From an uncultured Roseicyclus sp. (lineage in GTDB: Bacteria; Pseudomonadota; Alphaproteobacteria; Rhodobacterales; Rhodobacteraceae): 64,000 nucleotides of DNA. The first letter of the stretch is position 1, and each line of letters opens with the position of its first letter. A model generated the notes under the pieces. That model was not told where the DNA came from. It made no database searches and worked only from the letters and a program-made list of their open reading frames with translations. The translations under genes and the position numbers were made by a program. The stretch spans positions 1 through 64,000 of the forward strand of contig CANLXA010000003.1 of the NCBI GenBank assembly GCA_947494975.1. The letters run 5' to 3'. Positions 10,693 to 61,630 of the stretch are shown here, piece after piece.

Positions 10693-11409
10693 ATGAAGAC
10701 CCTGTCCACCCCGTTCACCCGCCTTGCCATCGTCGCCGCTGCGACCTGTCTTGGCGCCATGCCCGCGTTGGCCGATTGGAACGCCACCGCCATCACCCAG
10801 GGCACCACGACCGACGGGGATACCGGGTCCGTCGAATGCGCCCCCGGTGGCGTGCCCGGCGCGGTCTGGGGGACAGGGACCTACACGTCCGACAGTTCCA
10901 TCTGCGGCGCGGCACAGCATTTCGGCTGGATCAATGCCGCCGAGGGCGGGCGTGTCAGCTACCGTATGGTGGCGGGGCTTGGGGCCTATGAAGGCTCCAG
11001 CCAGAACGGCGTGACAACATCGGATTACGGCACCTGGAGCTTGAGCCTCCAGATCACCGGGGCCGAGCCGCTGGCTGCCGTAGCACCTGCCCCCACGCCG
11101 GGGCCCCGCGAGATCACCTGGGGGGATAACGCAGACGCGCTTGATATCGGCGAAGCCCTGGGCGAGACCTTCACGTTAAGCTGCCCCGCGGACCAGTTCG
11201 GGGGAGGAACAATCTGGGGTACGGATGTCTATTCGTCGGACAGCCCGATCTGCAACGCGGCCGTACATCGCGGCCACATCGTCGCCGCCGAGGGCGGAAC
11301 CGTAACGATCCTGATCCTGGGTTCGCAACCCACCTTCACCGGGACGGACCGAAACGGGGTGACCTCCGCCGATTTCGGCGAATGGCCGCGCAGCTACGTG
11401 TTCCAGTAA
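10693..11409 (+). CDS. Secreted tandem LCCL-domain protein
   Basis: The 238-residue product has a signal peptide (MKTLSTPFTR, hydrophobic core, cleavage near AMPALA-DW at residue 27). Two LCCL-like domains follow at about residues 47-118 and 162-231. Each shows the family pattern: first Cys, WGTxxYxSDSxIC, A(A/V)xHxG, AAEGGxV, and NGVTS-x-FG near the end. LCCL domains are extracellular modules better known from eukaryotic secreted proteins and a minority of bacterial exported proteins. A proline/alanine linker separates the two. The role, probably periplasmic or extracellular, is unknown. A hairpin terminator follows the stop. Confidence 0.8.
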   Translation: MKTLSTPFTRLAIVAAATCLGAMPALADWNATAITQGTTTDGDTGSVECAPGGVPGAVWGTGTYTSDSSICGAAQHFGWINAAEGGRVSYRMVAGLGAYEGSSQNGVTTSDYGTWSLSLQITGAEPLAAVAPAPTPGPREITWGDNADALDIGEALGETFTLSCPADQFGGGTIWGTDVYSSDSPICNAAVHRGHIVAAEGGTVTILILGSQPTFTGTDRNGVTSADFGEWPRSYVFQ

Positions 11410-49523: not shown

Positions 49524-49599
49524 GCCCCTATAGCTCAGCTGGTAGAGCATCTGATTTGTAATCAGTAGGTCCGCGGTTCGAGTCCGTGTGGGGGCACCA
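49524..49599 (+). tRNA. tRNA-Thr (anticodon UGU)
   Basis: The 76-base gene, including encoded CCA, folds as a cloverleaf: acceptor GCCCCTA/TGGGGGC, D stem GCTC/GAGC, anticodon loop TTTGTAA (anticodon TGT, threonine ACA codons) and T loop TTCGAGT. The anticodon-stem pair 27-43 is a T-T mismatch. That is unusual and is explained by the 3' half from position 31 onward having been supplied by the integrated element. It probably still functions as the tRNA. Confidence 0.93.
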
Positions 49600-49600
49600 T
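49554..49600 (+). repeat. attL, tRNA 3' half at element junction
   Basis: These 47 bases run from the anticodon loop to the base after CCA. They match 39 of 47 bases of the copy at the other end of the element (61436-61482). The first twelve bases (ATTTGTAATCAG), the T-loop region TTCGAGTC and the last 11 (GGGGGCACCAT) are identical. The crossover most likely lies in the first block. Confidence 0.8.
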
Positions 49601-49632
49601 TGAAATCAACCACTTAGCTGGCGAGAGAGTTT

Positions 49633-49666
49633 TAGGACGGTCCCGTAGGACGGTTTTTAGGACGGA
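49633..49666 (+). repeat. Left candidate integrase arm sites
   Basis: TAGGACGG occurs three times, at 49633, 49646 and 49658 (spacings 13 and 12), just inside the left end. The related TAAGACGG occurs twice just inside the right end. This two-ended placement is that expected of arm-type integrase binding sites. Confidence 0.55.
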
Positions 49667-49744
49667 ATGCGTCGCGTTTGTTCACTTATCTCCCCATCTC
49701 CTGTATCCAATGTGTGAGGCGAATTTCACACGGGAATCAGTACA

Positions 49745-50464
49745 TTGGCGCGAGAAGACATTGACCCACGCATCCTCGCGCTCTGCGACAAGGTGACTGC
49801 AAAGCGAGCCCGCGCACTCATCGACTACCTCATTGAGCATGGCGAGTGCTCGACAGAGGACTTGAACGACTTGGGCTATGACCACCCGCCCCGGGTAGCC
49901 GGTGACGTGAAGGAGGCAGGCATTCCCATCACCATGAAGCGGGACCGGGTGTCGGCCAAAACTGGCCGCAAGATTGGGGTCTACCGCTTTGGGAACCCCA
50001 GCGATATCAAGGCCGGGCGCATCGACGGGCGCAAGGCGTTCTCCAAGGCGTTCAAGCAGCGGCTGGTGGACCACTACGGCTCCCGGGAAGCGTTCACGCA
50101 GGAGGTGCTCGCGCCGCGCTACCTGCAGATAGACCACCGGGTGCCCTACCAAGTCGCGGGTGACGCTGCGTTCGATGAGTCCAACCCGGACGCCTACATG
50201 CTCATTGACGCGTCCAGCCAGCGGGCGAAGTCTTGGTCATGTGAGAACTGCCGCAATGCCCAACAAGACCACCGCGAGGAGGTCTGCCGGGTCTGCTTCT
50301 GGGCCTTTCCGGAGGAATACACCCACGTCGCATTGGAGGAAGTCCGGCGGCTGGACCTTGAGTGGCGGGGGGACGATGTGGCGGTGTTCGACCGGCTGCG
50401 GAAACAGGCTGCGCGGGAGGGCTTGACCGTGCAGGCCCTCGCCAAGCGCCTGCTAGATCGCTAG
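49745..50464 (+). CDS. HNH endonuclease, probable restriction enzyme
   Basis: The 239-residue protein has an N-terminal helical domain (about 1-90). A treble-clef HNH-type nuclease region follows, with LQIDHRVPYQV (Asp130-His131) and CENCRNAQQDHREEVCRVC, where C166, C169, C181 and C184 hold zinc. Placed convergently with a D12 adenine methyltransferase (12-base overlap), it is probably the restriction half of a type II system. The start is uncertain: an in-frame stop at 49715 limits it, and TTG at 49745 is the best candidate. Confidence 0.75.
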   Translation: MAREDIDPRILALCDKVTAKRARALIDYLIEHGECSTEDLNDLGYDHPPRVAGDVKEAGIPITMKRDRVSAKTGRKIGVYRFGNPSDIKAGRIDGRKAFSKAFKQRLVDHYGSREAFTQEVLAPRYLQIDHRVPYQVAGDAAFDESNPDAYMLIDASSQRAKSWSCENCRNAQQDHREEVCRVCFWAFPEEYTHVALEEVRRLDLEWRGDDVAVFDRLRKQAAREGLTVQALAKRLLDR

Positions 50465-51349
50465 GCGGGCCTGCGCTGCCCTCGGGCGTATCACCTCGTC
50501 AACCGGCTCGGCCAGCCCCGGCGTCACATACAGGCTCTCAACCGTCTCCTCCTTGCGCCCGGACAATGTGGATTGGGACGAGGTCCCGGCATGGAGCAAA
50601 AGACGCGTCAGCCCAAGGGCATCGGGCAGCGGTGGCCCATACTCGCGCCCGCCAGTCATCCCGTCATAGGACAGCGCAAAGGGGACACCGCGTGTGTTCA
50701 GCTCCTCAAGCCCCTCGCATACGGCCTCCTGCGTGAGCTGCTGGTGGTAGCGCTTGTCGCGCCCGATGGAGGTCCCGAGGTAGGGTGGGTCCATGTAGAC
50801 AAAGTCCCCCGGCCCGGCGTCCGCCGCCGTCTCGCGCCAGTCCCCAACCCGGAACTCAGTGCGGCCCCGGAGGATGCGTGAGACACCTAGCACCGCCACC
50901 TGCATTTTCTCGGGCCGCATCCCAAGGCGGCGCTTGTCTACCGACTGCGTGAAGCGACCGTCCCGGTTGAAGCGCACCGCGTTCTTGACGCAGCGGCAGA
51001 TCAGGTAGAGCAGGTCCACCGGGTCTCGGTCCCCGTTGTAGCGGTCCCGGACCTCGTTGAAGTAACCCAGCTCCCCCTCGCGCTGTCCCCGCCACACCTC
51101 GGCATACCGTGCCGCAGTCCGGTCAGGCTCCTCTACGATGGAGCGCAGCAGGGCTACCATAGGCTCAAGGCTGTCGCCCACCACAAACCGTTCCGCCCGC
51201 CCGTGGTGGGCGGCGTAGATCGTCATGGCGGCAGAGCCGCAGAACGGCTCATAGAACGTCTTGATGCCCTTGGGCAGATAGTCGTCAATCATTGGCGCGA
51301 GCTTACGTTTGCTGCCTTGGTATGGAATCGGGTGTGGCAATCTTGTCAT
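50453..51349 (-). CDS. D12-class N6-adenine DNA methyltransferase (Dam-like)
   Basis: The 298-residue enzyme shows PYQGSKRKLAP at residues 9-19 (motif X), FYEPFCGSAAM (motif I, SAM binding) and the catalytic DPPY at 187-190 in DFVYMDPPYLGTS. The target recognition sequence cannot be read from this. It is paired with the HNH gene, which suggests it protects host DNA, though satellites and phages also carry solitary Dam enzymes. A small membrane-protein gene starts 10 bases upstream on the same strand. Confidence 0.9.
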   Translation of the reverse strand: MTRLPHPIPYQGSKRKLAPMIDDYLPKGIKTFYEPFCGSAAMTIYAAHHGRAERFVVGDSLEPMVALLRSIVEEPDRTAARYAEVWRGQREGELGYFNEVRDRYNGDRDPVDLLYLICRCVKNAVRFNRDGRFTQSVDKRRLGMRPEKMQVAVLGVSRILRGRTEFRVGDWRETAADAGPGDFVYMDPPYLGTSIGRDKRYHQQLTQEAVCEGLEELNTRGVPFALSYDGMTGGREYGPPLPDALGLTRLLLHAGTSSQSTLSGRKEETVESLYVTPGLAEPVDEVIRPRAAQARLAI

Positions 51350-51358
51350 GTCTCTTTC

Positions 51359-51598
51359 CTATCGTTGTTCGCGGATTGTTTCCAGCACATCTTGTGGTCG
51401 GGCGGCTGCGACATGCTCAGTCTTGCGCCAGTGGGCCGGGTCGTGGGCGACGTCGAAGAGTGCGAGGGGGAACGCTGCCCAAAACACGGACAGCAGGAGG
51501 GGCAGCCAGAGCAGAAGCCCCGACCTGTGCGGAGTGGGCGTGCGCAGCGGCAGGTGGTAGATAAAGCGCAGATATATGTTCATGTTATGTTCAAACAT
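51359..51598 (-). CDS. Small putative membrane protein
   Basis: This 79-residue product has one hydrophobic helix (LLLWLPLLLSVFWAAFPLALF) after a basic N-terminus and a charged tail (HDPAHWRKTEHVAAARPQDVLETIREQ). No clear Shine-Dalgarno sequence precedes the ATG at 51598 or the ATG at 51583. Its close linkage to the methyltransferase gene supports its being real. Function unknown. Confidence 0.45.
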   Translation of the reverse strand: MFEHNMNIYLRFIYHLPLRTPTPHRSGLLLWLPLLLSVFWAAFPLALFDVAHDPAHWRKTEHVAAARPQDVLETIREQR

Positions 51599-51890
51599 GA
51601 TTGGGAGATAACCTTAGCCCCCACCAGCCGTCTATAGTTATCCCCGTTTCGCGAGTGAATTCAGCCCGTTGGCGGGGATAAACGGGCAAACTTTCTCTTG
51701 CAAAGGGGACTTTGCTGCCGGATATTACGTATAGGTGGGTTTTGACTGAGAACCCGACACCATCTCCCCAGCGGCATTCAGAGGTGGGCCGACAAGATCA
51801 ACGTAACCCCGGTTGCGCTGGCTGTCGGCATGATGTGTGTCCGCGTGACCCGAACCGACCGCCAGTGCTCCGATCAAAAGGAGATACTGA

Positions 51891-52082
51891 ATGGACCTTA
51901 GTGAATGGACGAATATTGATGATCTGAACGCCGATGCGAAGGCAGAGGTTGACCGCTGCTTGTTGATTTCAGACCGCAAGCAGCGTCTTAAGGCGGTAGA
52001 GGCAGCAGCAGCTCAGTTTCCACACCATATTGCGATCACGCAGCGACACCCGCTTACAGTTGAGTGTTACGCAATCCTTTAG
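51891..52082 (+). CDS. Small hypothetical protein
   Basis: The 63-residue protein (MDLSEWTNIDDLNADAKAEV...) has an excellent Shine-Dalgarno AAGGAG 7 bases before its ATG and helical, charged composition. It is less G+C-rich than the chromosome. It precedes another small gene on the same strand and both end before a strong terminator. Unknown function. Confidence 0.6.
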   Translation: MDLSEWTNIDDLNADAKAEVDRCLLISDRKQRLKAVEAAAAQFPHHIAITQRHPLTVECYAIL

Positions 52083-52146
52083 CAAACCGCACCGCCCGGC
52101 GCGGTGTCGGGCGGCGTCTCTCCAAAATCACGATAAGGAACACCCC

Positions 52147-52497
52147 ATGGGTACAAAGATAAGTGTTGCTGATGCAGCAGAGCGGCGCATGGCGCGCCGG
52201 ACGATGAACCAGCTTGAGGAAATGTCCGACTACGACTGGGGCTACTGCATCGGGATGGAAGGCCTGATGCGCCACTTCGGTAAACTGATCGCTAAACAGG
52301 TGCCGCTTCATCTTGCCGTAGGAAACCGCCACCACAACGTGCTGCCTCCGGTTCTGGAAACCATCGCGCGCTATGCTGAGTGGCACTCGGTGGAACACGG
52401 AGACCCCGAGAACCAGCATGTGGCGGAAGCGTTGGACGCGGTAAGGCAGACTGCCGCCCACGCCGCGAAGGTCGTTGCTGATTACCATGCAGCCTGA
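52147..52497 (+). CDS. Small hypothetical protein
   Basis: The 116-residue protein has a helical central region (RMARRTMNQLEEMSDYDWGYCIGMEGLMRHF) and a second block VLETIARYAEWHSVEHGDPENQHVAEALDAVR. AAGGA precedes the ATG at 52147. A GC-rich hairpin terminator follows 41 bases after the stop. No recognisable family; a satellite accessory protein. Confidence 0.65.
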   Translation: MGTKISVADAAERRMARRTMNQLEEMSDYDWGYCIGMEGLMRHFGKLIAKQVPLHLAVGNRHHNVLPPVLETIARYAEWHSVEHGDPENQHVAEALDAVRQTAAHAAKVVADYHAA

Positions 52498-52537
52498 TCC
52501 CGAGCGCCACCCGACGAACTGACCCACCCCGAAAACG

Positions 52538-52570
52538 CCCCGCCGGATTGATCCGGCGGGGCTATTATTC
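52538..52570 (+). terminator. Strong rho-independent terminator
   Basis: An 11-bp perfect stem CCCCGCCGGAT / ATCCGGCGGGG with a 2-base centre is followed by CTATTATTC. It ends the rightward 51891-52497 unit and also lies beyond the leftward unit stopping at 52624, so it could serve as a bidirectional terminator. Confidence 0.85.
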
Positions 52571-52623
52571 AGTGGGCTTCCCCATATGGGTGCGTACCAC
52601 CCCGCAAGCTGCCGTTTTCGGGG

Positions 52624-52989
52624 TCAGTGCATCACCGGGCGCGGCAACCAGAGGTCGCGGGAGAACAGGCACCAGCCCAGTGCGACCTGCACGGTGCGGT
52701 CGTGCTGGCGGATGAGGTGCGGCGTGGCGCGCTCGGGCTCGCGCAGCGCGTCCACCCAAACGTCGCGCCGGGTCCCCGGGTGGCGTCGGCAGAGGAGCCC
52801 TACGAGCCCCCCGAGGCGGGCGCGCGGGACACGGTAGAGCTGGGCGAACTGCACGACCATCGCGGGGGTGGCCCAGCCGTCCGCGCTTGCCTCCTCCGCA
52901 TGGGCCACGAGCGCGAGGTGCGCCAGTTGGAGGCGGCGTGGGAACAGCCGCCCGTAGGCTTCCGCCAGACGGTCCGCGTCCATCTTCAC
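52624..52989 (-). CDS. Hypothetical satellite protein
   Basis: The 121-residue protein is helical and Arg-rich (ADRLAEAYGRLFPRRLQLAHLALVAH ... WATPAMVVQFAQLYRVPRARLGGLVGLLCRRHPG). A GTG start at 52989 overlaps the upstream stop (GTGA), making it translationally coupled; the ATG at 52983 is an alternative. No family recognised. It is last in the leftward satellite operon. Confidence 0.6.
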   Translation of the reverse strand: MKMDADRLAEAYGRLFPRRLQLAHLALVAHAEEASADGWATPAMVVQFAQLYRVPRARLGGLVGLLCRRHPGTRRDVWVDALREPERATPHLIRQHDRTVQVALGWCLFSRDLWLPRPVMH

Positions 52990-53246
52990 GCGCCGCGCCC
53001 GGGGCCTGTGTAGGCCGTGCCCAAGGCATCGCCTTGAAACACGCAGGGGACAAAGCTGCCTGCCGCCGTGGCCGCGACCTGCGTGGTGTCGAAGCCCGCA
53101 AACGGGGTGTTGAGCTGAGGCGTCAGGTCGTTAGCTGCGGCGATGGCCGCCGGGGCGTCCGCTGCGTCCACGAGGGCGGCATGGACGGCGGCGGGGTTCT
53201 TGAGCTGCTCAGCGCCCTTGGGGCGGGTGACGAGGTAGAGGGGCAT
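52986..53246 (-). CDS. Hypothetical satellite protein
   Basis: This 86-residue protein (MPLYLVTRPKGAEQLKNPAAVHAALVDAADAPAAIAAANDL...) is Ala-rich. Its start codon shares a base with the preceding stop (TGATG), and its stop overlaps the next start. This tight coupling in a three-gene run suggests related functions. No family recognised. Confidence 0.6.
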   Translation of the reverse strand: MPLYLVTRPKGAEQLKNPAAVHAALVDAADAPAAIAAANDLTPQLNTPFAGFDTTQVAATAAGSFVPCVFQGDALGTAYTGPGRGA

Positions 53247-53962
53247 CAGTTGGCATCCTTCTTGTTGAGTGCGAGCTTCACGCGGTCCAGAGGCCGGACC
53301 TTCCCGGCGGTGAACTCGCGGTTGAGGTTGATCGCGGCCTGCGCGGCGAGCTTGATGTTAGTGATGGCGGCCTGCACGGCCCGTGTCTCCTCGCCCACTA
53401 GGCGGTCGGCCAGCTCAGCCGTGGACAGGGGGCGGTCACGACGGGGCATCCGGTCCACCACCGACATGATGGCGGCCCCTAGGACCTTGTTGTTGGTCGC
53501 CACAGCCAGCGCGGCCATGTTCTTGAGCTCCACGGTCCCGGAGCCCTCAAGCTGCTGCTGAAGGTGGGAGCGCTCGGGTGTCCCGAGCCCGGCGCGGGCG
53601 AGCACGGCCTGCGGGGAGGCGTAGAGCGTGGCGGTCAGCGCGACGGCCTCGGAGGCGGCGTTCACCTCCCGGATGTAGCCCCAGCGGGCATCCTCGGAGT
53701 TGTTGACCACATCGGCACGGGCCTTGGCCGCGAGCTTGGCAGCAGCGCTGCGCTGGTCCTCGGGGGAGAAGCCCGCAGCGGCGGCGGAGGCAGCGGCCTC
53801 TTCACCACGCCGGGCGATGCCAGCCTCAAGGCCTGCGATCACGGTGCCGAGTTTCTCCGCCCGCTTGGCGGCATGTTCGGCAAGGCTGATCACCTCAGCC
53901 GTGGCAATCAACTTGCCCGGCGGCGGGAGTGGGTCGTGATTGTCGGGGGCGGGTTGGTTCAC
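53246..53962 (-). CDS. Hypothetical helical satellite protein
   Basis: The 238-residue protein is almost entirely helical and Ala-rich (LIATAEVISLAEHAAKRAEKLGTVIAGLEAGIARRG; AAKARADVVNNSEDARWGYIREVNAASEAV; VVDRMPRRDRPLSTAELADRLVGEETRAVQAAITNIKLAAQAAI). The final part resembles a dimerising DNA-associated helix pair. I start at GTG 53962, preceded by AGAGGAG. Coiled-coil structural or capsid-redirecting roles are possible but unsupported. Confidence 0.6.
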   Translation of the reverse strand: MNQPAPDNHDPLPPPGKLIATAEVISLAEHAAKRAEKLGTVIAGLEAGIARRGEEAAASAAAAGFSPEDQRSAAAKLAAKARADVVNNSEDARWGYIREVNAASEAVALTATLYASPQAVLARAGLGTPERSHLQQQLEGSGTVELKNMAALAVATNNKVLGAAIMSVVDRMPRRDRPLSTAELADRLVGEETRAVQAAITNIKLAAQAAINLNREFTAGKVRPLDRVKLALNKKDAN

Positions 53963-54100
53963 TGGACAAGGCTCCTCTGCTTGGGGCCGCCAGTGCAAAA
54001 GCGCCCTCCGGCGGGCGGCCAATCCTGAGGAGAAGATACCGCGCGCTTGAGGTACTAGGCGAATGGAAAGGATTGTAGATTAGGTAGAAACAGCGAACAC

Positions 54101-55009
54101 TCAAAAAGGTGACTCAAAACCGTCCACCTTCTCATCCACAGATTTAACCATATCCGATAAAGCGTCTGATAAGCTCAAAAGGAATGCTTGGTCGATCTGG
54201 TGCAATTCACCGGTGTCTCGGTCCACACCATTCCTGTGGACGCAATCATGGCGCATCTTAATTGATTTCTGAACTAAGGCGAGGTCTTCACCCTCAGGCA
54301 GAATGTCGATGCCAAGCCCAACGCGAAAAAGCCCGTTCGCACTCTGGATATTGTGGAAGGAAACGGCCCTAAGATGTTCGAGCAATTTGGTTTTTGCGAA
54401 GTCTTCAACGCCGATTGCATCAGCAAGTTTGAATTGTTTGTTGCCAATCCCCAAGGTCTTGGAGCCCAGTAATTTTTCCTGCGCCTTTTGACTGTTTGAG
54501 ACCGTCAAAATCAATGTGTCTGCAAGGAATACTTCAAGCGCCGTTATGCTCTGCGCCAATAGCATACGCGCCAACATTTGGGATTGAGCATCCAGCAGCA
54601 CCTTGGACGTCAGAGCCTTCACGTCGCTCATTGTTTGTGTGAAGGCGCGAAAGACAGGCCGGGATAGCTGCTCTTGTTGCTCCAGCCACTCGTAGTAGTC
54701 TTGATCATAATCGTCGTAGTCATTGGCAGAGCCGCGCATTGGTTCTGTTTCGATTGTTACGTCTGGATGATCGTCCAGTTCAATTACGCAACTGTCCCAG
54801 TCGGTTCTGACCCAGCCGTCAAAACTGTGATGTCCGCCAAAACATTCAACGGTCACGGGTAGGTGTTCGGTGTCCCCATTCTCATAGACAGTCGGCAGCT
54901 CAACTGTTCCATCAACCTCTGCTTCGCAATCTGGGCAATAGAATGAAACGTCGCTCGCCTCCCATTGAGCTTCTTCCATTTCCATCATCAGTGCTTTGGC
55001 ACGGCCCAT
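54101..55009 (-). CDS. HEPN-domain protein with N-terminal zinc ribbon
   Basis: The 302-residue protein has an N-terminal CPDC (25-28) and a later Cys56/His60 that may complete a zinc ribbon. An acidic linker rich in Asp/Tyr (97-111) and a C-terminal helical domain follow. The latter has the HEPN RNase signature R-x4-H in KMRHDCVHRNG (Arg253, His258). HEPN RNases act in toxin-antitoxin, abortive infection and CRISPR defence. The codon and base composition is clearly more A/T-rich than the neighbours, indicating separate acquisition. Anti-phage cargo of the satellite is the best guess. Confidence 0.75.
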   Translation of the reverse strand: MGRAKALMMEMEEAQWEASDVSFYCPDCEAEVDGTVELPTVYENGDTEHLPVTVECFGGHHSFDGWVRTDWDSCVIELDDHPDVTIETEPMRGSANDYDDYDQDYYEWLEQQEQLSRPVFRAFTQTMSDVKALTSKVLLDAQSQMLARMLLAQSITALEVFLADTLILTVSNSQKAQEKLLGSKTLGIGNKQFKLADAIGVEDFAKTKLLEHLRAVSFHNIQSANGLFRVGLGIDILPEGEDLALVQKSIKMRHDCVHRNGVDRDTGELHQIDQAFLLSLSDALSDMVKSVDEKVDGFESPF

Positions 55010-55165
55010 CTGATTTCCTTTTTGATTGCCAGCAACATAATAGACTCATTCAGATTGGAAGCTGCGCGAAAAGTGAACTGCGGATTTGTTGCCGCGCGTC
55101 ATTTGGTTGGATCTGTACTAACTGTATTTGGTCTTTTTGGGGTTGGCGAGAATTTTCCGGCGGCC

Positions 55166-55708
55166 TCAATCACCGCGTCGTGTCTCCGGGTCCACGACAA
55201 CCTCGGGCTCGCCGGGGATGCGCTTTACGGCGTCAGGCCGTATGGGGCTGTCATACGTTCCGGCCTGCCGCTGCTCCTCTAGGAACTCCTCCATGCTCAT
55301 CTTGTTCGGGACAACGAGGACGCCGCCGGTGTTCACGCTCAAGCTCAGGTTCGCCTCAAGCGCCTCGCCCTCACGGTACTGGTGGCGGGCCTTCAACAAG
55401 AAGATGTTTGCGACGATGTTGCCCTCATCGGCGGCCTCCCGGAGGTTGCTGACTAGCGCGTCGTGCTCACGGGCGAGCCCGGCGTGGTAGGCGTCGTCAA
55501 CCTCGGGCTGGCGGTCGCGGCACGAGCGGAAGGCGTCCTTGCTCATTCCGAGGGCGCGGGCAATCGTGGCGACGTGTACGCCGCGCCCGGCCAGCTCCTC
55601 CACGAGGCGGAGGCCCAGCTCAGTCACGCGCCAGTGCGAGCGGCCCCCGGCTCCGGGCGCGGGCGGGACCAGCCGCGCGGGCAGGTCAGTTTCAGTGCGT
55701 TTGGTCAT
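55166..55708 (-). CDS. Terminase small subunit-like DNA-packaging protein
   Basis: This 180-residue protein has an N-terminal HTH (LRLVEELAGRGVHVATIARALGMSKDAFRSCRDRQPEV) and the middle region HDALVSNLREAADEGNIVANIFLLKARHQYREG, which follows the TerS-type pattern of phage packaging proteins. No large terminase is present, as in satellites that redirect a helper's packaging motor. It overlaps the serine recombinase stop by 4 bases. Confidence 0.7.
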   Translation of the reverse strand: MTKRTETDLPARLVPPAPGAGGRSHWRVTELGLRLVEELAGRGVHVATIARALGMSKDAFRSCRDRQPEVDDAYHAGLAREHDALVSNLREAADEGNIVANIFLLKARHQYREGEALEANLSLSVNTGGVLVVPNKMSMEEFLEEQRQAGTYDSPIRPDAVKRIPGEPEVVVDPETRRGD

Positions 55709-56322
55709 TGCTCAGTCGCCTCCTTGTCAAATTGTGTGCACACCGTCTGGCTCAGGCCCTTGCCGCAGCGCAGCTCACGCGCGATGCGGTCCATGCCCAT
55801 TCCCCGGCTGCGCAGGTTGCGAATCGCGGCAACGAGGGCGTCGGACGCCGGGGGCCTGCCTAACCTCTTACCTTGAGCGCGGGCGCGGGCGAGACCCGCC
55901 TTGGTTCGCTCAACGATCATTGACCGCTCCATCTCAGCGACCATGCCCCGGACCTGAAACAACAGCTTGCCGGAGGGTGTCGTGGTGTCCAGCGCCTCCT
56001 GATGCAAGTGCAGGTCGATGCGCAGCGCCTCAAGGTCATGCACGAGGTTGAGCAGGTCCCGGAGCGAGCGCCCGAGGCGCGAGGCGTCCCACGCCATGAG
56101 CACGTCATACTGGCGGCGCGCGGCATCAGCGCGCGCCCTGTCCAGCTCGGGCCGCGAGGCGCTGGCACCCGAGGCCGTCTCAACGTACTCCTGCACGACG
56201 GTCCATCCCGCGCGCTCCGCCACCTCCCTGAGGCAGAGAAGCTGGTTTTCGCAGGTCTGGTCCCCGGTGCTCACGCGGGCGTAGATAGCGGCGCGGCGGG
56301 TGGTGTTGTTTGGATGTGTCAT
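55705..56322 (-). CDS. Serine recombinase (resolvase/invertase family)
   Basis: The 205-residue recombinase has the catalytic start AAIYARVSTGDQTCENQL (Ser in VST), RLGRSLRDLLNLV with active-site Args, and a C-terminal HTH (GKRLGRPPASDALVAAIRNLRSRGMGMDRIARELRCGKG). It is of Pin/Hin length, catalysing site-specific inversion or resolution. The ATG at 56322, with GGAG 7 bases upstream, is preferred to the ATG at 56334. It is the second recombinase in the element. Confidence 0.88.
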   Translation of the reverse strand: MTHPNNTTRRAAIYARVSTGDQTCENQLLCLREVAERAGWTVVQEYVETASGASASRPELDRARADAARRQYDVLMAWDASRLGRSLRDLLNLVHDLEALRIDLHLHQEALDTTTPSGKLLFQVRGMVAEMERSMIVERTKAGLARARAQGKRLGRPPASDALVAAIRNLRSRGMGMDRIARELRCGKGLSQTVCTQFDKEATEQ

Positions 56323-56927
56323 ATGGTGCTCCATTTCTATCAACTTGGAATGAGCCCAAGTGAAGGAACGTATCGTGAACACCGCCACCCCGTAAAGGGA
56401 AAATACTGGGGTGTCGGAGGGTTGGTCCGGGGAGCCCAGCGGACGTGGGCTCCGGCGGCGTCGCACGGCGGGGCGTTTTCGGGGTGGGCATGGCAAGCAC
56501 CTTGCAGAACTAGTTGCCGGAGCGTCCCGGGGGCGGCGGCAGCACGCGCGGCGTGATTGGCTGACCTTGCCCACCAACCTTTTACGCATCCGCACAGGAC
56601 GTGTTTTGGTGTTTCCTGCAACCCTGCCCAGAAGCGTGACGCGCCAGCGGTCCGGGCTGGGTCCGGGCTGGGTCCGGGCTGGGTCCGGGGTAGGTCCTGG
56701 GTCTGGAGACTGCTAACCTCCAGTCCTGCCACGCCTTTCTGCGCTAGGTCCGGGAGGTCCGGGATAGTCTTCACATATACGCGAGAGGTCAGAGAAACGG
56801 GGGAGAAGGGAGGCAGACTAGACACACAATAGGGAGTATCCCGGACCGGGCGGACCTAACCCGCTAAGTGTTTGTTTTTCTGGGCAAGCAGCCCGGGGGA
56901 CCCCGGACCGCTATCCCGGACCCTGCC
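56323..56927. other. Non-coding origin-like region
   Basis: These 605 bases between the serine recombinase start and the primase stop contain no convincing gene: short frames exist on both strands but lack ribosome sites and family features. The region is dominated by the GGTCCGGG repeat cluster. It is the largest gap in the element and adjoins the replication gene. Confidence 0.65.
56424..56922. repeat. GGTCCGGG iteron-like cluster, candidate replication origin
   Basis: GGTCCGGG occurs on the plus strand at 56424, 56649, 56660, 56671, 56682, 56747 and 56756, and inverted (CCCGGACC) at 56840, 56902 and 56915. That is ten exact copies. Four are spaced at exactly 11 bases, about one helical turn, with a one-mismatch fifth at 56693. 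The cluster lies directly beside the primase-helicase gene, as iterons bound by a satellite Rep protein would. Confidence 0.7.
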
Positions 56928-59504
56928 TCAGAACGGCGTGTCGCCGCCGTGCCGGAAGCCTACCCGCATGGCGATGCCACGGAAGCCGGGCACCCTGTCC
57001 CCGCCATCTCGGCCCTTGCTGTCCCGCACCTGCTGGTCCATCGCAGAGTAGAGGTCCCGGGCGAAGATGTTGGCATTGCTCAGGTAGTCCTGCCCCATGT
57101 GGTCCCTGTGCCATTCACGGAACGCCGCAAACAGGCGGTCCTTAGCAACCCAGTGTTCCGGTCCGACCTCGCACCACTCACGGACAAAGGCCGGGATCGG
57201 GGAGGATAGGTCCCCCATCTGCATTGACACATCGGCCCCGACCTCTGGCTGCGTGATCCGCCCGGTTGCCCGGACGCGCCGCCAGCCCTCCACCGCCCAG
57301 TTTAGGATGCCCGGCAACTCCGCCATCAGCGCCCCAGTCAGGCCCGTGTCCTCGCGCCCAAAGAAGCTCTGTCGCATTGGCAGGACGATGAAGCGCGAGA
57401 CCAGCGCCCCGGACCTGTCAGCGAACCTCGGAACCTCGTTGGTCATCACCACGAACCGCGCCCGGAGCGTGACCTCCACGGCGCTGCGGTGCTTGCGGTT
57501 CACGCTGATGCGGTCCTCACCTGTGATGCGCAGCAGGTTCTCCGCCACCGCCGCCTCATCGGTCCGCCCGCTCAGTCGCATGTCCGACACGATGGCGAGT
57601 TGCTTAGCAAGAAGGGGCTCAAGTCCGAAGTCACTCTTGCCGAAGCTGTTCAGAGACGGGGCCACTGTGTTCGCCTCGCCCACCAGCTTGCCCATGATGC
57701 GCCCGATGGTCCCTTTGCCTGAGCGCTTTGGGCCGGGGATCAGCAGGGCCTTCTGGAGGCTGGTGTCGGGCGTCAGAAGGTAGCCCATGAACTCCTGCAA
57801 CGCGGCAATGCAGTCCGCCTCATCCTCACCCGGCCAGACCTCACGCAGGAAGGCGAGCCAACGGACAGGCTCCGCCGCGTCCGCATCATGTGCGAAGTCC
57901 AGCGCATTCCTTGTGAACAGCTCCGGCGTCGCGGGCAGCAGATCGCCTGTCGGCAGGTGAAGCAGGCCCGAGCGCGTCGGCAGAAGCTCAAGTGGATCGG
58001 GACCGGCCCGCCCGTCCAGCCATCGCGGCGGCTCTTCACGGGATGGCGCAAGGTGCGTCACCGCCTTGAGCGCGTCAACGGTGGTGCTCACGGCTCCCGA
58101 GGTCGGGTTGAACGGCCCCATCTCGCCTTCCTTTGGTTTGACGCGGCACGCCTCCAAGAACGCCCATGCCTCTGCCCGGACGGTCCCGTCATCAACACCA
58201 GTGTAGGCAGCACCGTCCCAGTCAAGGAACTCTTCATGGTGGTGGAGCAGACGGGGCCACCTCGCACTCCGCACGGCCCTTGCCCAGTCCATTGCACCAC
58301 CATGCAGCACCGGGCCGGGCCGGGGCTGGCGCTCAAGTGCGCGCTGCACCTGACGGCGGGCGTATGTTTCTGAGTTGGACTGGTCAAAGACATGGTCGCT
58401 GACCCGGAAGTCCGGGTCAAGTATCACCCCAAGCAACACGTCATCGGGCACGTCCGCGCGGATCATCTCGCACAGGACGTGCAGCACGAGCTCGGAGCGG
58501 TTTTCCCACTTGCCGGGTTCGTCAGGGTCCTTGCCGTTGACGATCAGGGCACGGGTTTTGGCTGACACCGCCTCTGGCAGCTCATCGACACCCGAGAGGC
58601 GGCGGGCCGGACCAGCGACACGCGCCGCGCTGACCGGAGCGGTGACGCTGGTGCTTTCAAACTCCTCCAGTGCGTGTCGCCGCGCCCAGTCTGCCCAGAG
58701 GAGCCGGGACACGCGGGGCGTGCGCCCCCGCTTGCGCTTCCGCTCGTCGGGCAAGTTGACTGTCCCGACCAGACGCATGATGCGGTCGGCGTTGTGGCAG
58801 TTGTCCGCCTGCAGTGCGGCCTCAAAGGTGAGGTTGCGGCCCTCCACCGTCTCCGCGAGCCGTGACTTGTGGGCATCCATCTCCGCCCGCTCGGCATCGC
58901 TCAGCGGCCCGCGCGCCTCGGGCTTCATTTCACGCCAGAACAGCTTCGCCAGCTCAGCAGAGCCGCCCACCGCGACATCCTCCTTGAGCAGCCAGAACGC
59001 CTGCAAACCGCCACCGCTGTCGATGATTGCGGTGGGTTCAAGCGCCCGCAGCAGCGACCAAGCCCGCGCCCGCTCGCTCACAGGGTCCTCTCCTGCCCTT
59101 GGGTCAACGTCCACGTGCAGGGCGCGGATGGCTGCGACCGCACCCTTGTTGGGCTTGCTCGTCACTGGCCCGTAGAGCCCGTTCACGGTGAAGTAGATGT
59201 TCTCCTTGCCCTGCCGCTCATCAATCCACGCAGCCATCTTGTCGCCTTCACTCGCGGTGAACGTCGCAGTGGTGGTGCGTCCCCCATCCGGGATAATGGA
59301 GGTCAGGACGCGCGGGCCATCGCCGCAGAAGTTGCGCATGAACGCGACCGATGCGGCGGTGTCCGGCAACAAGTCTTTCTGGTCGGCTCCGGTGTCGTCT
59401 GAGGGTATATTTTCCGGGATGATGTTTGGGTTATGTTCGTCATGCTCTCCCTGACCCCCGGTACCCTCCACGGTGCCGGGGGTTCGCTTTTCCGGGGCGC
59501 TCAT
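56928..59504 (-). CDS. Primase-SF3 helicase replication protein
   Basis: This 858-residue bifunctional replicase has an N-terminal RepB/AEP-like primase: LHVDVDP (129-135) as the metal-binding acidic motif, IDSGGGLQAFWLL (161-173) and NADRIMRLVGTVN (238-250). A C-terminal superfamily 3 helicase follows, with Walker A GPKRSGKGT (591-599), Walker B near QLAIVSDM (635-642) and VVMTNEVPRF as motif C. P4-type satellites use such fused enzymes to replicate from their own origin. The ATG at 59504 overlaps the AlpA-like stop by 4 bases; longer upstream sequence is not homologous. Confidence 0.9.
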   Translation of the reverse strand: MSAPEKRTPGTVEGTGGQGEHDEHNPNIIPENIPSDDTGADQKDLLPDTAASVAFMRNFCGDGPRVLTSIIPDGGRTTTATFTASEGDKMAAWIDERQGKENIYFTVNGLYGPVTSKPNKGAVAAIRALHVDVDPRAGEDPVSERARAWSLLRALEPTAIIDSGGGLQAFWLLKEDVAVGGSAELAKLFWREMKPEARGPLSDAERAEMDAHKSRLAETVEGRNLTFEAALQADNCHNADRIMRLVGTVNLPDERKRKRGRTPRVSRLLWADWARRHALEEFESTSVTAPVSAARVAGPARRLSGVDELPEAVSAKTRALIVNGKDPDEPGKWENRSELVLHVLCEMIRADVPDDVLLGVILDPDFRVSDHVFDQSNSETYARRQVQRALERQPRPGPVLHGGAMDWARAVRSARWPRLLHHHEEFLDWDGAAYTGVDDGTVRAEAWAFLEACRVKPKEGEMGPFNPTSGAVSTTVDALKAVTHLAPSREEPPRWLDGRAGPDPLELLPTRSGLLHLPTGDLLPATPELFTRNALDFAHDADAAEPVRWLAFLREVWPGEDEADCIAALQEFMGYLLTPDTSLQKALLIPGPKRSGKGTIGRIMGKLVGEANTVAPSLNSFGKSDFGLEPLLAKQLAIVSDMRLSGRTDEAAVAENLLRITGEDRISVNRKHRSAVEVTLRARFVVMTNEVPRFADRSGALVSRFIVLPMRQSFFGREDTGLTGALMAELPGILNWAVEGWRRVRATGRITQPEVGADVSMQMGDLSSPIPAFVREWCEVGPEHWVAKDRLFAAFREWHRDHMGQDYLSNANIFARDLYSAMDQQVRDSKGRDGGDRVPGFRGIAMRVGFRHGGDTPF

Positions 59505-59734
59505 TCCTGCCTCCCGGCTTCCAGCCACGCATCTAGGTCTTCGCGGCGGTAGCGCACGATGCGCCCGCTCACCTTGTGAAACACTGGGCCACGGCGGCGG
59601 TAGCGCAGCTCCTCTAGGCCACGGGCGGTAAGCCCGCAGTAGGACGCGGCTTGGTCGGGTGTGAGCCACTCGGGCGTGACCAGCTCATCACGCACCCGCG
59701 CAACGACAAGCTGGACGATTTCATCGACGTTCAT
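59501..59734 (-). CDS. alpA: AlpA-type helix-turn-helix regulator
   Basis: The 77-residue protein is a MerR-like HTH of the AlpA/excisionase class: PDQAASYCGLTARGLEELRYRRRGPVFHKV ... RYRREDLDAWLEAG. In P4 and Gram-negative PICIs AlpA activates the integrase-side genes and excision. GGAG precedes the ATG at 59734 by 6 bases; a GTG at 59779 would add 15 residues. It lies between integrase and primase, transcribed with the primase (4-base overlap). Confidence 0.9.
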   Translation of the reverse strand: MNVDEIVQLVVARVRDELVTPEWLTPDQAASYCGLTARGLEELRYRRRGPVFHKVSGRIVRYRREDLDAWLEAGRQE

Positions 59735-60032
59735 GACGATCTCCAAAGGTCGCGGAGCGTCAGAATGTGAGGGTGTCACAGCGACGCCCCGGGTTTCCGG
59801 GGGTCGCCAGTCGGATGAGAGACGCTGCGATGATCGCCGTGTCCGTCCGGGCCTGCACCCGCCCTCTGGGCAGTGCTCAGCCTTGCGGGGGCCGCGTGCT
59901 CACTCCTTCAACGGCACATCATCATCTAGCCGCGCGCCGTTGGCGGTTGAAGTGCTTACGTTAACAGGCGGGCGCGGGCCGGTAAAGTGTCAATCTGCGC
60001 GACAACAAGAATTGCGCAGCTTATTCAGGAGG
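59735..60032. other. Gap between alpA and integrase stop
   Basis: Across these 298 bases I see no gene. A short inverted repeat CTGCGC / GCGCAG near 59994-60018 lies beyond the int stop and could end that transcript. The alpA promoter should lie in the left part, but no clear -35/-10 pair stands out. Confidence 0.45.
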
Positions 60033-61262
60033 TTATCCCCGGTGGCAGGCGTCCATGATGTACCGGCTCATGGCCTCCTGTTGTGCGCGCAGGTAGTCCT
60101 CCGCCACCTTGTTGCGCGTCATGTAGCCGTCGTTCACGTCTCCGTCCGCATGGTTCATCAGTATCATCACGTCCGTCTTGCTCAGCCCGGCCTCAGAGGA
60201 GAGCGTCTTGTAGGTCTGTCGCAGGTCGCCGCCCCACTTGGGCAAGGCATCGCGGTCCTCCCGGTACTCTACAATGTGGCCAGCGGAAAGTGGCCCGTTA
60301 GCCCGGCGAGAGCGAGAAAGGTCCCCGGGGAACACCCATTCATCAGCGTTGCGGGCGTTCACCACCCGTCCGGCGCGGCGGGCGCGCGCGAGGCAGGCCA
60401 GCATCGGGCGCGACAGGGGAATGTCGAAGGCCCGCTTAGTGCCGCCCTTGGGCTTGGGGATGTGCAGGACGCGGCGGCGCATGTCGAGGTGCTCCCACCG
60501 TGCGACGGTGAGCGCCCCGGGCCTCGCGCCAGACAAGAGGCAGAACAGGTGGAACTCCTGCCGCACAAGGTTGGGCAGCGCCCGCAGCTTGCAGTGCCAC
60601 CCGGCAAGGTCTGCGGCGCTCATTGCTGTGTCGCGCCGGGCGCTCGGGTTGAGGTCCACCGAGTCAACGGGGTTGTAGTGGGGCAGGTTCGGGTCAAGAC
60701 GCCGCTTGTGCGCGTAGTTGTACGTGCGGCGCAGGAACACCATCGCGCCGTTCGCAGCGGAAGGCCCGCTCGCCTCGCTCAACTCCCGGTGCCGCTTCCT
60801 GACCTCGTTGGCGTTGTCGGAGAGCCGAGACAGGGGCGTGTCGTGCCAGTCCCGGAGGAGCTGCGCGCCGTACTCGTATGAATCAACGGTGCGCTGGCTG
60901 CGCCTGCCACTGGCTACCTCACGCTCAAGGCTGCCCCTCAGCTCCTCCCATGCGTCGCCCAAGGACAGCGCCCGGCCTGCCGTGCGGGCCTTCTCGCTGG
61001 ATATTGCGACCTTGGCGGCGCGGGCTGCGCGCCGGGCTTCCGCGACGCCCATGTTGGGCCACTTGCCCACGGCCTGTTTCCGGGTCTGCCTCTTGCCCAA
61101 GGGGTTCGTCACGTCCACCTGCACGGTGAAGGTCTTGGACCGTTTGCCCACGACGACAAAGAAGCCCGGCTCCTCGGTGTCCCGGACGATGTACTGGCCC
61201 GCGTCTGCCGGAGGCAACTTTTCTAGGACCTCTTTGGTGAGCTTGGTAGGCTGAGCGTTCAT
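60033..61262 (-). CDS. int: Tyrosine-family integrase
   Basis: The 409-residue integrase has an N-terminal arm-binding domain of the DUF4102 style (TKLTKEVLEKLPPADAGQYIVRDTEEPGFFVVV). A core-binding segment follows (about 100-200) and a catalytic domain with Arg247 (LLSGARPGAL), Arg348 in GGDLRQTYKT, His371 in MNHADGD and Tyr380 in VNDGYMTR. The usual HxxR is changed: Gly replaces the first His. The ATG at 61262 is preferred; an in-frame TTG sits at 61265. It starts next to the right attachment arm. Confidence 0.9.
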   Translation of the reverse strand: MNAQPTKLTKEVLEKLPPADAGQYIVRDTEEPGFFVVVGKRSKTFTVQVDVTNPLGKRQTRKQAVGKWPNMGVAEARRAARAAKVAISSEKARTAGRALSLGDAWEELRGSLEREVASGRRSQRTVDSYEYGAQLLRDWHDTPLSRLSDNANEVRKRHRELSEASGPSAANGAMVFLRRTYNYAHKRRLDPNLPHYNPVDSVDLNPSARRDTAMSAADLAGWHCKLRALPNLVRQEFHLFCLLSGARPGALTVARWEHLDMRRRVLHIPKPKGGTKRAFDIPLSRPMLACLARARRAGRVVNARNADEWVFPGDLSRSRRANGPLSAGHIVEYREDRDALPKWGGDLRQTYKTLSSEAGLSKTDVMILMNHADGDVNDGYMTRNKVAEDYLRAQQEAMSRYIMDACHRG

Positions 61263-61286
61263 CAAATGTTCTCCCCGTTGCGGGCC

Positions 61287-61306
61287 TAAGACGGAATTAA
61301 GACGGT
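61287..61306 (+). repeat. Right candidate integrase arm sites
   Basis: TAAGACGG occurs at 61287 and 61298 (11-base spacing), immediately upstream of the int start and inside the right attachment site. It differs from the left TAGGACGG sites at one base, giving a shared TARGACGG motif. Confidence 0.55.
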
Positions 61307-61435
61307 GCTTCCAGCTTAGGGGTAAGTGTGGTGTGGCCCGTTAGCGCCCCGCGACTTCTTGTAAAAGTCATAGAGCACAGGGGTTTGGGCCGTTCGGCGG
61401 GAGCTTAACGGGCGGCACGTGGAGCGTCTAGTCTT

Positions 61436-61482
61436 ATTTGTAATCAGAGGGTCGGGAGTTCGAGTCTCTCTGGGGGCACCAT
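61436..61482 (+). repeat. attR, displaced host tRNA-Thr 3' half
   Basis: This 47-base tRNA 3' half runs from the anticodon loop through CCA. Compared with the active tRNA copy, six of eight differences are three compensating base-pair changes in the T stem (49-65, 51-63, 52-62), so it is a functional tRNA half rather than decay. Its A43 would also restore the 27-43 pair with the retained host 5' half. It is therefore most likely the original host 3' end. Confidence 0.8.
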
Positions 61483-61630
61483 CATATCCTTGGCCTACCG
61501 CCCTTCGGGCTACTTGAGGCCGGGATGCGGGTTCTAGGTTTTGCCCGTCACCCGCACCATCTTTTCAGGGCCTGTTCCGCCGTCGACTGCACCGGCTGTC
61601 CGCTCGGACACGTTAACAATGGGCGGTGTC

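Follow-up and report, generated by a model that had tools for sequence, protein, structure and literature searches.

A candidate phage satellite with its own small terminase in a Rhodobacterales tRNA-Thr gene

What is the 11.9-kb unit that interrupts a tRNA-Thr gene in this Rhodobacterales genome, and how does it move? An earlier note, made from the window (the whole 64,000-nucleotide stretch of DNA analysed), had read it as a Rhodobacterales satellite that parasitises helper phages. Our analysis supports the satellite reading, from which we infer the parasitic life cycle; it is highly probable that the locus is an integrated phage satellite that has its own small terminase (TerS) and is packaged via a helper.

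Island borders, replication genes and cargo

The mobile island measures 11,882 bp and is inserted at a 12-bp core inside the tRNA-Thr gene. The attachment gene, tRNA-Thr(TGT), lies at 49524..49599 on the + strand (ARAGORN, Rfam), and in a genome of the same genus (G010) this site is empty. Comparison with the empty site indicated that the gene is chimeric, its 5' half being that of the host and its 3' half, from the T arm on, being borne by the island. The tRNA-proximal crossover core, ATTTGTAATCAG, occupies 49554..49565: the left att copy matches the empty site up to the core, and the right copy from the core onward. The distal att (61432..61482, + strand, core at 61436-61447), defined by the repeat and the empty site, is the displaced host 3' half of tRNA-Thr. 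Together the copies form a 51-nt direct repeat (49550-49600 and 61432-61482), only 82% identical because two tRNA-Thr genes are their sources. The tRNA-bounded 11.9-kb unit of the earlier note is thereby confirmed, and its size and discrete att agree with the broad sense of phage-inducible chromosomal islands (PICIs; about 9-15 kb). A Rhizobiales donor for the distal att, suggested by plasmid matches, was rejected: the empty site assigns the distal half to the host itself and the proximal 3' half to the island. Near-identity DNA searches returned only tRNA-size pieces in plasmids, and no match in phages.

The integrase, AlpA-type regulator, primase-SF3 helicase and TerS-like protein named in the earlier note were all found approximately where it had placed them (Pfam, PHROG, TIGR01613). 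The tyrosine integrase gene (int; 60033..61265, - strand) matched Arm-DNA-bind_3 (3.6e-7) and, slightly short of its cut-off, Phage_integrase (1.2e-5). It is accompanied by an AlpA/excisionase-type HTH regulator (59501..59779, - strand; HTH_17, 3.7e-10) and a primase-SF3 (D5) helicase (56928..59507, longest frame 56928-59669, - strand; TIGR01613, 1.2e-43; PHROG primases). Most genes are indeed read leftward, but two run rightward: that of the HNH restriction enzyme, at 49745-50464, and a small ORF at 52030-52497. As had been claimed, no large terminase or structural gene was present: capsid, portal, tail and lytic genes were absent from the island proteins scanned (PHROG and Pfam; Pfam only for AlpA and the integrase), as were a relaxase and the capsid, portal and protease genes of capsid-forming PICIs.

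Beside the primase gene lies a putative replication origin (56424..56922), where 10 GGTCCGGG sites, seven in one orientation and three in the other, surround an A+T-richer spacer (56764-56839; 51% A+T against 32-40% in its neighbours). This would correspond to the origin typical of PICIs, in which an AT-rich spacer next to pri separates two sets of iterons. The repeat cluster withstood a shuffling control: GGTCCGGG occurs 10 times in 56329-56927, whereas the commonest 8-mer in 100 shuffles of the region reached 2.2 copies on average and 5 at most. Over the whole window there are 15 copies, compared to a shuffle mean of 7.4, and one shuffle in 100 reaches 15. For four other islands (L065, L072, L076 and L084), the origin repeat count does not exceed that of their own shuffles.

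Cargo had been described as a HEPN protein and an HNH/Dam pair. The pair proved to be a type II restriction-modification system, composed of an HNH endonuclease (49745..50464, + strand; PADLOC REase_II, 2.1e-48) and a D12/Dam-type adenine methyltransferase (50453..51349, - strand; Pfam PF02086, 2.4e-26; PADLOC MTase_II, 3e-66). The HEPN label is less firm: it comes from an RHDCVH motif, recognised by eye, which we take to be HEPN, and the PADLOC match of the protein is weak (0.009). The small ORF (52144..52497 with a start chosen by eye, + strand) has nucleotide matches to two islands, L132 (81%) and L123 (73%). Restriction, methyltransferase or other defence genes occupied the cargo slot in 9 of 9 islands scanned. 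Antiviral defences that cut or mark DNA are frequent in related islands.

The packaging operon and its control

The serine recombinase and the LexA boxes described here are additions to the earlier note. The recombinase gene, of the resolvase/invertase type (55705..about 56328, - strand; Pfam Resolvase, 2.9e-43), reads into terS from upstream and overlaps it by 4 nt; its product is 52-97% identical to those of seven other islands. The terS gene (55166..55708, - strand), recognised with PHROG and a profile of its relatives, encodes a small terminase with a GGVLVVP...RGD tail. Inside the operon follows the gene of the HEPN-motif protein (54101..55009, - strand; phrog_29321, 1.5e-12, function not assigned in PHROG), which is 77% identical in L068 and is a candidate defence or interference gene.

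Three core genes complete the operon. The first, p53246 (53246..53977, - strand), encodes a protein modelled as helices only (AlphaFold pLDDT 84.5), a candidate morphogenesis or interference factor for which fold searches gave no match below E 0.2. The second, p52986 (52986..53246, - strand), is present in family islands; it is absent by tblastn from L066, L067 and L069, where p53246 adjoins p52624, and its structure model is poor (pLDDT 43). The third, p52624 (52624..52989, - strand), occurs in 9 islands that were fetched and, among the 26 family loci (window included), in 23. None of the three matched PHROG or Pfam, and PDB profile searches with their families and that of TerS returned nothing usable.

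A LexA (SOS) box, GTTCACGATACGTTC (56366..56380, - strand), stands 52 nt ahead of the recombinase start. This box, of the alphaproteobacterial type, is exact in 22 of 26 loci, against a background of 0.127 boxes per kb in the 32 loci fetched, counted loci included; the same spaced motif adjoins recA in all 12 same-genus genomes read, the island's own included. A second match lies across the int start codon (61257..61271, + strand), and int boxes were seen in 10 of 17 islands, leaving out L069 (int split), L128 and L134 (no full int). The operon is followed by a GC-rich conserved hairpin (52500..52640, - strand), delineated by an alignment of eight islands and a consensus fold. It is probably a terminator, although support from covariation is weak, with 4 of 20 pairs and an unfavourable covariation term. 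A role of this hairpin as cos or pac site was considered; a terminator accounts for it, and no such site was identified in the island.

A 23-nt perfect inverted repeat flanks the operon (arms at 52523..52545, + strand, and 56466..56488, - strand). Shorter, diverged versions occupy corresponding places in L065 and L072, and none was seen there in the other islands compared. With the serine recombinase, these repeats may make the operon an exchangeable or invertible cassette; inversion was considered, and no island was seen in the inverted state.

The island family, its small terminases and candidate helpers

Serine recombinase followed by terS was found in 26 non-redundant islands or fragments, window included (duplicate loci of one contig being counted once: L114=L068, L118=L071, L120=L070, L126=L073, L135=L072). 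The family is here mainly from Rhodobacteraceae, and one member (L131) is in Rhodobacter capsulatus SP108. In fifteen of the 26 loci the whole stretch between int and the last core gene, p52624, can be read, and these are alike in gene set and order, so that the int-alpA-primase-TerS arrangement foreseen in the earlier note does recur. The order int, regulator, primase, origin, interference/terS is that of PICIs, but int is co-directional with the other genes and a divergent repressor is lacking. The 12 islands that were measured span 11.3-14.0 kb, and their attachment gene, where a tRNA was found across the family, is tRNA-Thr, -Arg or -Asn. A further 13 relatives match the primase, G011 and G014 among them.

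The best PHROG match of the TerS-like protein was phrog_12540 (unknown function, 2.5e-5), followed by phrog_309, terminase small subunit (3.1e-4); the latter matches 10 of 11 aligned relatives, at best with 1.1e-8. Packaging homologues do exist: TerS relatives stand directly upstream of the large terminase gene (terL) in Moraxella phage Mcat8 and in four IMG/VR contigs. The IMG/VR matches were obtained with alignments of p53246 and TerS; scans with the single proteins gave none. In island L129, TerL is the next recognised gene after TerS, about 0.5 kb on, and L084 has a diverged TerS (phrog_4044, 6.5e-9) at the corresponding place. TerL is present in 3 of the 26 loci.

The TerS tails fall into two groups. 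A GV[LI] motif is present in all 24 readable tails from loci without detected terL, and in none of the six with terL. A tail profile (A12) found the phage contigs L139 and L140; set against shuffled controls, it was significant for L139 only (3.3e-13), where TerL is preceded, at a distance of 3 kb, by a TerS from a different family. Among 50,697 phage records, the L139 tail matched three (E 1-3), all annotated as TerS of Rhodobacter or Roseobacter phages. A similar motif, with weak scores, is seen in TerS of RcSimone-Hastad/RDJL3-type phages: the profile gave E 0.39-4.8 for RcSimone-Hastad, RcRudolph, PaMx11 and RDJL3, the last scoring below two shuffles, and E 0.64 for the L081 TerS, which lacks the motif. 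TerS matched RcSimone-Hastad at E 0.022 over 43 residues. The N-terminal half of the island primase shares 38-45% identity with primases of phages whose TerLs are also the best matches of the L139 TerL, and a family primase profile recovered RcSimone-Hastad (4.6e-24) and RDJL3 (1e-10).

These weak scores provide a lead: the helper may be a phage of the RDJL/YuA/RcSimone-Hastad type. The link is weakened by the shuffled control, by the RGD end being absent from all five phage TerS compared in it, and by the failure of the window primase to match RcSimone-Hastad or RDJL3 in tblastn at E 1. Neither the window TerS tail (at E 10) nor the C-terminal 30 residues of TerS from L122 matched the phage collection. 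Moreover, the TerLs of RcSimone-Hastad and RDJL3 show relationship to that of the L079 type (3e-80 to 4e-60), so that no clean line divides tail type from TerL type. A temperate helper would suit the LexA box better; no integrase is annotated in bases 1-54992 of the 63102 of RcSimone-Hastad. A search of the host genome by the phrog_2 family alone showed no resident helper, its sole phrog_2 large terminase belonging to a gene transfer agent (GTA).

A satellite cycle may be proposed from these elements. The integrase and AlpA would mediate insertion and excision at the tRNA anticodon loop, and the primase-helicase would replicate the circle from the repeat-bearing origin. The LexA-box operon would then supply the serine recombinase, probably to resolve multimers or to recombine DNA at specific sites, three conserved proteins whose probable role is to modify or exploit the heads of the helper, and a satellite-specific TerS. 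The N-terminal domain of this TerS would bind island DNA and its C-terminal tail recruit the helper TerL, so that island DNA would be packaged in helper particles and transferred. The restriction-modification cargo would protect the host against other phages.

Alternative explanations and comparison with known satellites

Could the island be what is left of a temperate phage after loss of the structural genes? The phage-type integrase, primase and TerS would fit, as would damage in some relatives (int split in L069, serine recombinase split in L074, TerS short in L072). However, independent remnants would differ from one another, and 15 islands share the same short gene order with conserved regulation over 11.3-14.0 kb. 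Among the PHROG families listed (25 of 51 matched) for 81 further ORFs from 14 islands (86 listed minus five from L131, four short and one a 466-aa frame), none was structural; nor was any among those listed for the remaining ORFs of L125 and L129, two of the loci with TerL. The recurring family and the empty tRNA site argue that this is not a prophage remnant, and we regard decay as very improbable. Hijacking of the host GTA in place of a phage appears equally far-fetched: a GTA cluster does exist in the genome, but the TerS profile matched no frame of its region (L113), and a GTA particle has room for only a few kb, too little for an 11.9-kb island.

A defence island or integrated replicon independent of phages, moved by recombinases of its own or through chance transduction and with the TerS-like protein as HTH partner of the serine recombinase, deserves more attention but is still unlikely. 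The two genes overlap and travel together, and resolvase-type and TerS-like genes at most 1.5 kb apart also occur in L077 and L089-L092, with no TerL match there; the restriction-modification cargo and the inverted repeat around the operon in three islands point the same way. Against this, TerS homologues precede TerL in phages, L129 has both, and no relaxase was found among the island proteins. A recombinase partner would also not explain why the TerS tail varies with the presence of TerL.

Within the phage satellite reading, we tentatively entertain, at somewhat less than even chances, a distinct alphaproteobacterial family that reached the solution of SaPIs independently, with a chimeric TerS in which a satellite DNA-binding domain is joined to an RDJL/YuA/RcSimone-Hastad-like TerL-binding tail, TerL-bearing islands keeping the other tail type. 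If this is true, tail type would predict the helper from sequence alone. No title or abstract opening among the literature matches listed describes a satellite of Rhodobacterales, and the family may be undescribed. Candidate helper phages of R. capsulatus exist in public records; with the SP108 member, a tractable alphaproteobacterium is therefore at hand in which to test how satellite and helper interact and how restriction-modification genes spread.

Known satellites resemble the island to differing degrees. An integrase, an AlpA-type regulator, a primase-helicase and a similar size are traits of P4-like satellites. The available description agrees (PMC6092414); the Rhodobacterales island differs by its own TerS. 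P4 has the packaging and head-size genes psu, delta and sid; the three conserved operon proteins of the island had no match in the general PHROG scan. PICMIs of Vibrionaceae, also from marine bacteria, share the int, alpA and primase core, but the prototype has six genes and a fis site, whereas our family uses tRNA genes (here tRNA-Thr) and has a TerS operon; the available PICMI text lacks the word 'terminase' (PMC10803314).

Gram-negative PICIs of the EcCICFT073 group, as far as the available text goes, have int, alpA and pri-rep without structural genes and an origin in which iterons form two sets on either side of an AT-rich spacer, and some carry a terS homologue (PMC6092414). EcCICFT073 has Rpp and uses the helper TerS (PMC6739421), and its alpA is stated to be SOS-independent, whereas the Rhodobacterales island has its own full-length TerS, LexA boxes, a serine recombinase and an alphaproteobacterial host.

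With pac-type SaPIs, according to the accessible parts of the sources, the island shares int, a primase with adjoining origin, a LexA-controlled TerS packaging operon and cargo that can sit at the end away from int (PMC5052747, PMC6092414). It differs by an AlpA-type regulator in place of the divergent Stl repressor, a serine recombinase before terS, tRNA sites and another phylum, and among the matches of general family scans none was to cpmA/cpmB or to pti genes. The LexA box on its packaging operon would, by analogy, parallel the control of SaPI operon I.

Insertion site and gene content of the island

One end of the island lies at a tRNA-Thr(TGT) gene, 49524-49599 of the window; at the other end, 61432-61482 repeats the 3' half of that gene. 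In G010, a genome of the same genus with an empty site, both island flanks are adjacent, with the complete tRNA-Thr alone between them, and are 94% identical to those of the window. Base by base comparison of the three tRNA sequences placed the crossover within the 12 bases ATTTGTAATCAG (49554-49565 and 61436-61447): the left copy agrees with the empty site through the end of this stretch, and the right copy does so from its first base on. From these positions the island measures 11,882 bp, and the window's present tRNA-Thr is a host-island chimera. Just outside the distal attachment site lies a dispersed repeat (61483-61560), of which the host genome has several copies and its genus many partial ones.

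Reading leftward from the distal end, the island encodes an integrase (int), an AlpA-type regulator, a primase-D5 helicase, a repeat cluster, a serine recombinase, a small terminase (TerS)-like protein, a HEPN-motif protein, and three proteins of no known family, p53246, p52986 and p52624; beyond them, a small ORF that reads rightward precedes a type II restriction-modification pair. An earlier note had int, the AlpA-type regulator, the primase-helicase and the TerS-like gene running leftward, and so they do; the small ORF and the restriction endonuclease gene read rightward. The repeat cluster consists of ten GGTCCGGG sites, seven in one orientation and three in the other, and the spacer between the repeat sets has 51% A+T, compared to 32 to 40% in neighbouring stretches.

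A family of related islands

Among 295 genomes of the same bacterial family, by inference Rhodobacteraceae, 18 (own included) contained a relative of the TerS-like protein, and 12 a relative of p53246. In named genomes, 25 loci were found, with carriers including Rhodobacter capsulatus SP108 (island L131), Paracoccus sediminis, Rhodovulum tesquicola, Loktanella fryxellensis, Gemmobacter and Shimia litoralis, whose island is of the tRNA-Thr type. Five of the 25 come from metagenome bins, assigned to Thioalkalivibrio, Aestuariivirga or Sphingomonadales or to no more than a class or phylum, and may be mis-binned. The order common to the fetched regions was int, alpA, primase, serine recombinase, TerS, variable genes, p53246, p52986 (absent from some regions), p52624, cargo and tRNA. 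The serine recombinase gene followed by terS was found in 26 islands or fragments, each contig being counted once, and 15 of these, window included, were readable from int to p52624. Within such readable islands, p52986 was not found in L067, L069 and L078, and int is split in L069. Twelve measured islands, window included, were 11.3 to 14.0 kb long. Nucleotide comparison showed them to be mosaics: the recombinase-TerS block of the window is 92% identical to that of island L065, its primase block is nearest to L066 (78%), and its int-side blocks are nearest to L129, L115, L122 and L068 (73 to 75%).

On the int side, part of the tRNA recurred as a direct repeat at 6 of 9 loci in one test and 8 of 18 in another; among the failures of the latter, sequence before int or primase was present in L117, L118, L119 and L131, and the remainder were loci cut off or the window, whose repeat at 61432-61482 was found separately. 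The repeat starts at tRNA position 30 or 31, L136 being the exception. Copies of the tRNA 5' half also occur about 95 to 140 bp from the intact gene in L065 (2352-2390), L066 (5341-5376), L071 (14656-14693) and L076 (5518-5555); these are perhaps scars of earlier insertions.

At the place of the repeat cluster, other islands carry different motifs: nine AGTCCGGG in L066, nine CCCCGACC in L067 and eight in L069, six GTCGGTAA in L068, and six AACGACTA in L078. No excess over their own shuffles was detected in L072, L076 and L084, and the five copies in L065 were inside the range of its shuffles; L071, which has a run of N, was left out of this judgement.

The serine recombinase is constant in the family, and its presumed catalytic residues are conserved in the eight sequences aligned. 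The window operon lies between the arms of a perfect 23-nt inverted repeat, of which L065 and L072 have diverged versions; resolution, inversion or cassette exchange are candidate roles for the recombinase and these repeats. In three tRNA-Asn-type islands, 16- to 18-nt inverted repeats flank the LexA-box promoter of the recombinase (L067, about 10770-10863; L069, 11784-11883; L078, 5265-5368), an arrangement that resembles invertible promoters; the inverted form was not seen in these three.

In all nine islands scanned for cargo (L066 and L073 were left out), the stretch from p52624 to the tRNA held genes for restriction enzymes, methyltransferases or other defences: besides the type II pair of the window, an N6/N4 methylase (L065), type IIG enzymes (L067, L069, where it is split, and L078), PD-Lambda-2 (L068), NaeI with a C5 methylase (L070), a C5 methylase (L071) and an Eco57I-type methylase (L072). 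When 81 non-core ORFs from 14 further islands were compared with PHROG, 51 families matched; the best 25 of these were mostly methyltransferases, a restriction endonuclease, primases and families of no known function, and none of the 25 was a capsid, portal, tail or lysis family. With PADLOC, the best 25 of 138 families in the same 14 islands were mainly type II and related methyltransferases.

A more distant type is L076 (5697-15337, genome G129), a 9.6-kb island with int, a gene of AlpA size, primase, TerS and large terminase (TerL); p53246 was not found there, and four scanned neighbours had no PHROG match. Other candidate islands (L077, L089 to L092) have a weak TerS relative with a resolvase-type gene within 1.5 kb, and in L089 a Terminase_4 small terminase adjoins the TerS-like gene.

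The small terminase and its candidate helpers

The 'terminase-small-like protein' of the earlier note was borne out: in Moraxella phage Mcat8 a homologue directly precedes the annotated terminase, four IMG/VR contigs (L079 to L082) have homologues directly before large terminases, and 10 of 11 aligned members match phrog_309, terminase small subunit (best 1.1e-8). Sequence comparison thus argues strongly for a small terminase. Among the islands, L129 has TerL about 0.5 kb after TerS, L125 and L128 have TerL before p53246, and L084 has a diverged TerS (phrog_4044) in the same position. In L072 (8498-8797), TerS is only 99 residues long and appears to be a fusion of its first 74 residues with the end of a small neighbouring gene type.

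The tails of these proteins differed with the presence of TerL. Of 27 TerS from loci without detected TerL (in L074 and L075 the contigs end soon after TerS, so that TerL may lie beyond), 24 had a readable tail; all 24 contained GV[LI], in 17 cases exactly as GGVLVVP, and 19 ended in RGD. Neither feature occurred in the six tails that could be read where an island or phage carries TerL (L129, L076, L079 to L082). In lambda, the end of TerS recruits TerL, according to PMC6739421; since it does so in known systems, a helper TerS would be expected to share the tail and otherwise to differ in the part that binds DNA.

A profile of ten tails matched two IMG/VR loci. The protein matched in contig L139 belongs to a different TerS family, and its own matches include many annotated terminase small subunits; it lies 3 kb upstream of a large terminase, and a portal-like gene was recognized by eye. 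The 33-residue tail of L139 had three matches in 50,697 phage records (E 1 to 3), each of them a protein of a Rhodobacter or Roseobacter phage annotated as terminase small subunit. The TerS of RcSimone-Hastad, RcRudolph, RDJL3, PaMx11 and L139 share GGV[LM], then two hydrophobic residues and P, and none of them ends in RGD. Against 9,000 shuffled proteins, the tail profile was significant for L139 only; the four named phages scored E 0.39 to 4.8, and the motif-less L081 0.64. Used alone, the window TerS tail and the end of the L122 tail had no match in the phage collection; window TerS residues 102-142 matched RcSimone-Hastad TerS at E 0.022.

The window primase had no tblastn match in RcSimone-Hastad or RDJL3 at E 1; the family primase profile matched them at 4.6e-24 and 1e-10, respectively. 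For p53246, p52986 and p52624, the best tblastn value against these two phages was E 0.35, with no profile match. The N-terminal half of the island primase is 38 to 45% identical to that of PaMx11, Bordetella CN1/FP1/MW2 and related phages, which also top the L139 TerL search. Phages with an island-like TerS tail (RcSimone-Hastad, RcRudolph, RDJL3, PaMx11) are thus proposed as a lead to the putative helper group. Since they share the operon with TerS, p53246, p52986 and p52624 are candidates for helper-specific functions.

The host genome itself contains a gene transfer agent cluster (contig C1, 158000-170500), with terminase, portal, protease, capsid and GTA TIM barrel; its terminase is the only phrog_2 large terminase found in that genome.

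Predicted LexA control and comparison with known satellites

In each of the 12 same-genus genomes (own included) examined at the recA locus, GTTCN7GTTC, the alphaproteobacterial LexA box, occurred 130 to 150 bases upstream of the RecA domain; of eight more distant genomes, five have it near recA. The exact box was present on the coding strand between primase and serine recombinase in 22 of the 26 islands (10 of 12 in the first set, plus 12 more non-redundant ones), compared to a background of 0.127 per kb over 32 fetched loci, a figure that includes the operon sites. It lay at most 70 bases from the recombinase start in 12 islands, and 280 to 1,200 bases upstream in 10, with extra genes between (seen in L065 and L071). 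As for the other four, L073 has one mismatch (by eye), L074 a damaged recombinase gene, and the contigs of L124 and L130 begin 583 and 186 bp upstream. Ten of 17 islands also have a box at the start of int (9 of 14 in one set, 1 of 3 in another). An identical match, GTTCACACTTTGTTC, occurs in the cargo region of L122 (12401), L132 (12764) and L124 (5155), so that part of the cargo may also be SOS-controlled.

As to the kind of element, the earlier note's reading as a phage satellite is upheld. The element is best filed as a PICI-like (phage-inducible chromosomal island) satellite family with a putative life cycle. No published description of this family was found in the literature searched, and 'undescribed' is to be taken as a lead only. 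The exact putative LexA box before the recombinase-TerS operon in 22 of 26 islands recalls staphylococcal pathogenicity islands (SaPIs), whose packaging operon (operon I, with terS) is LexA-controlled according to PMC5052747. For Gram-negative PICIs, PMC6092414 describes an AT-rich region between two iteron sets, and the window likewise has two repeat sets around an A+T-richer spacer; alpA of such a PICI is SOS-independent according to the same paper, whereas LexA boxes are predicted in the present family. These islands would combine SaPI-type LexA regulators with AlpA regulators of the Gram-negative PICI type.
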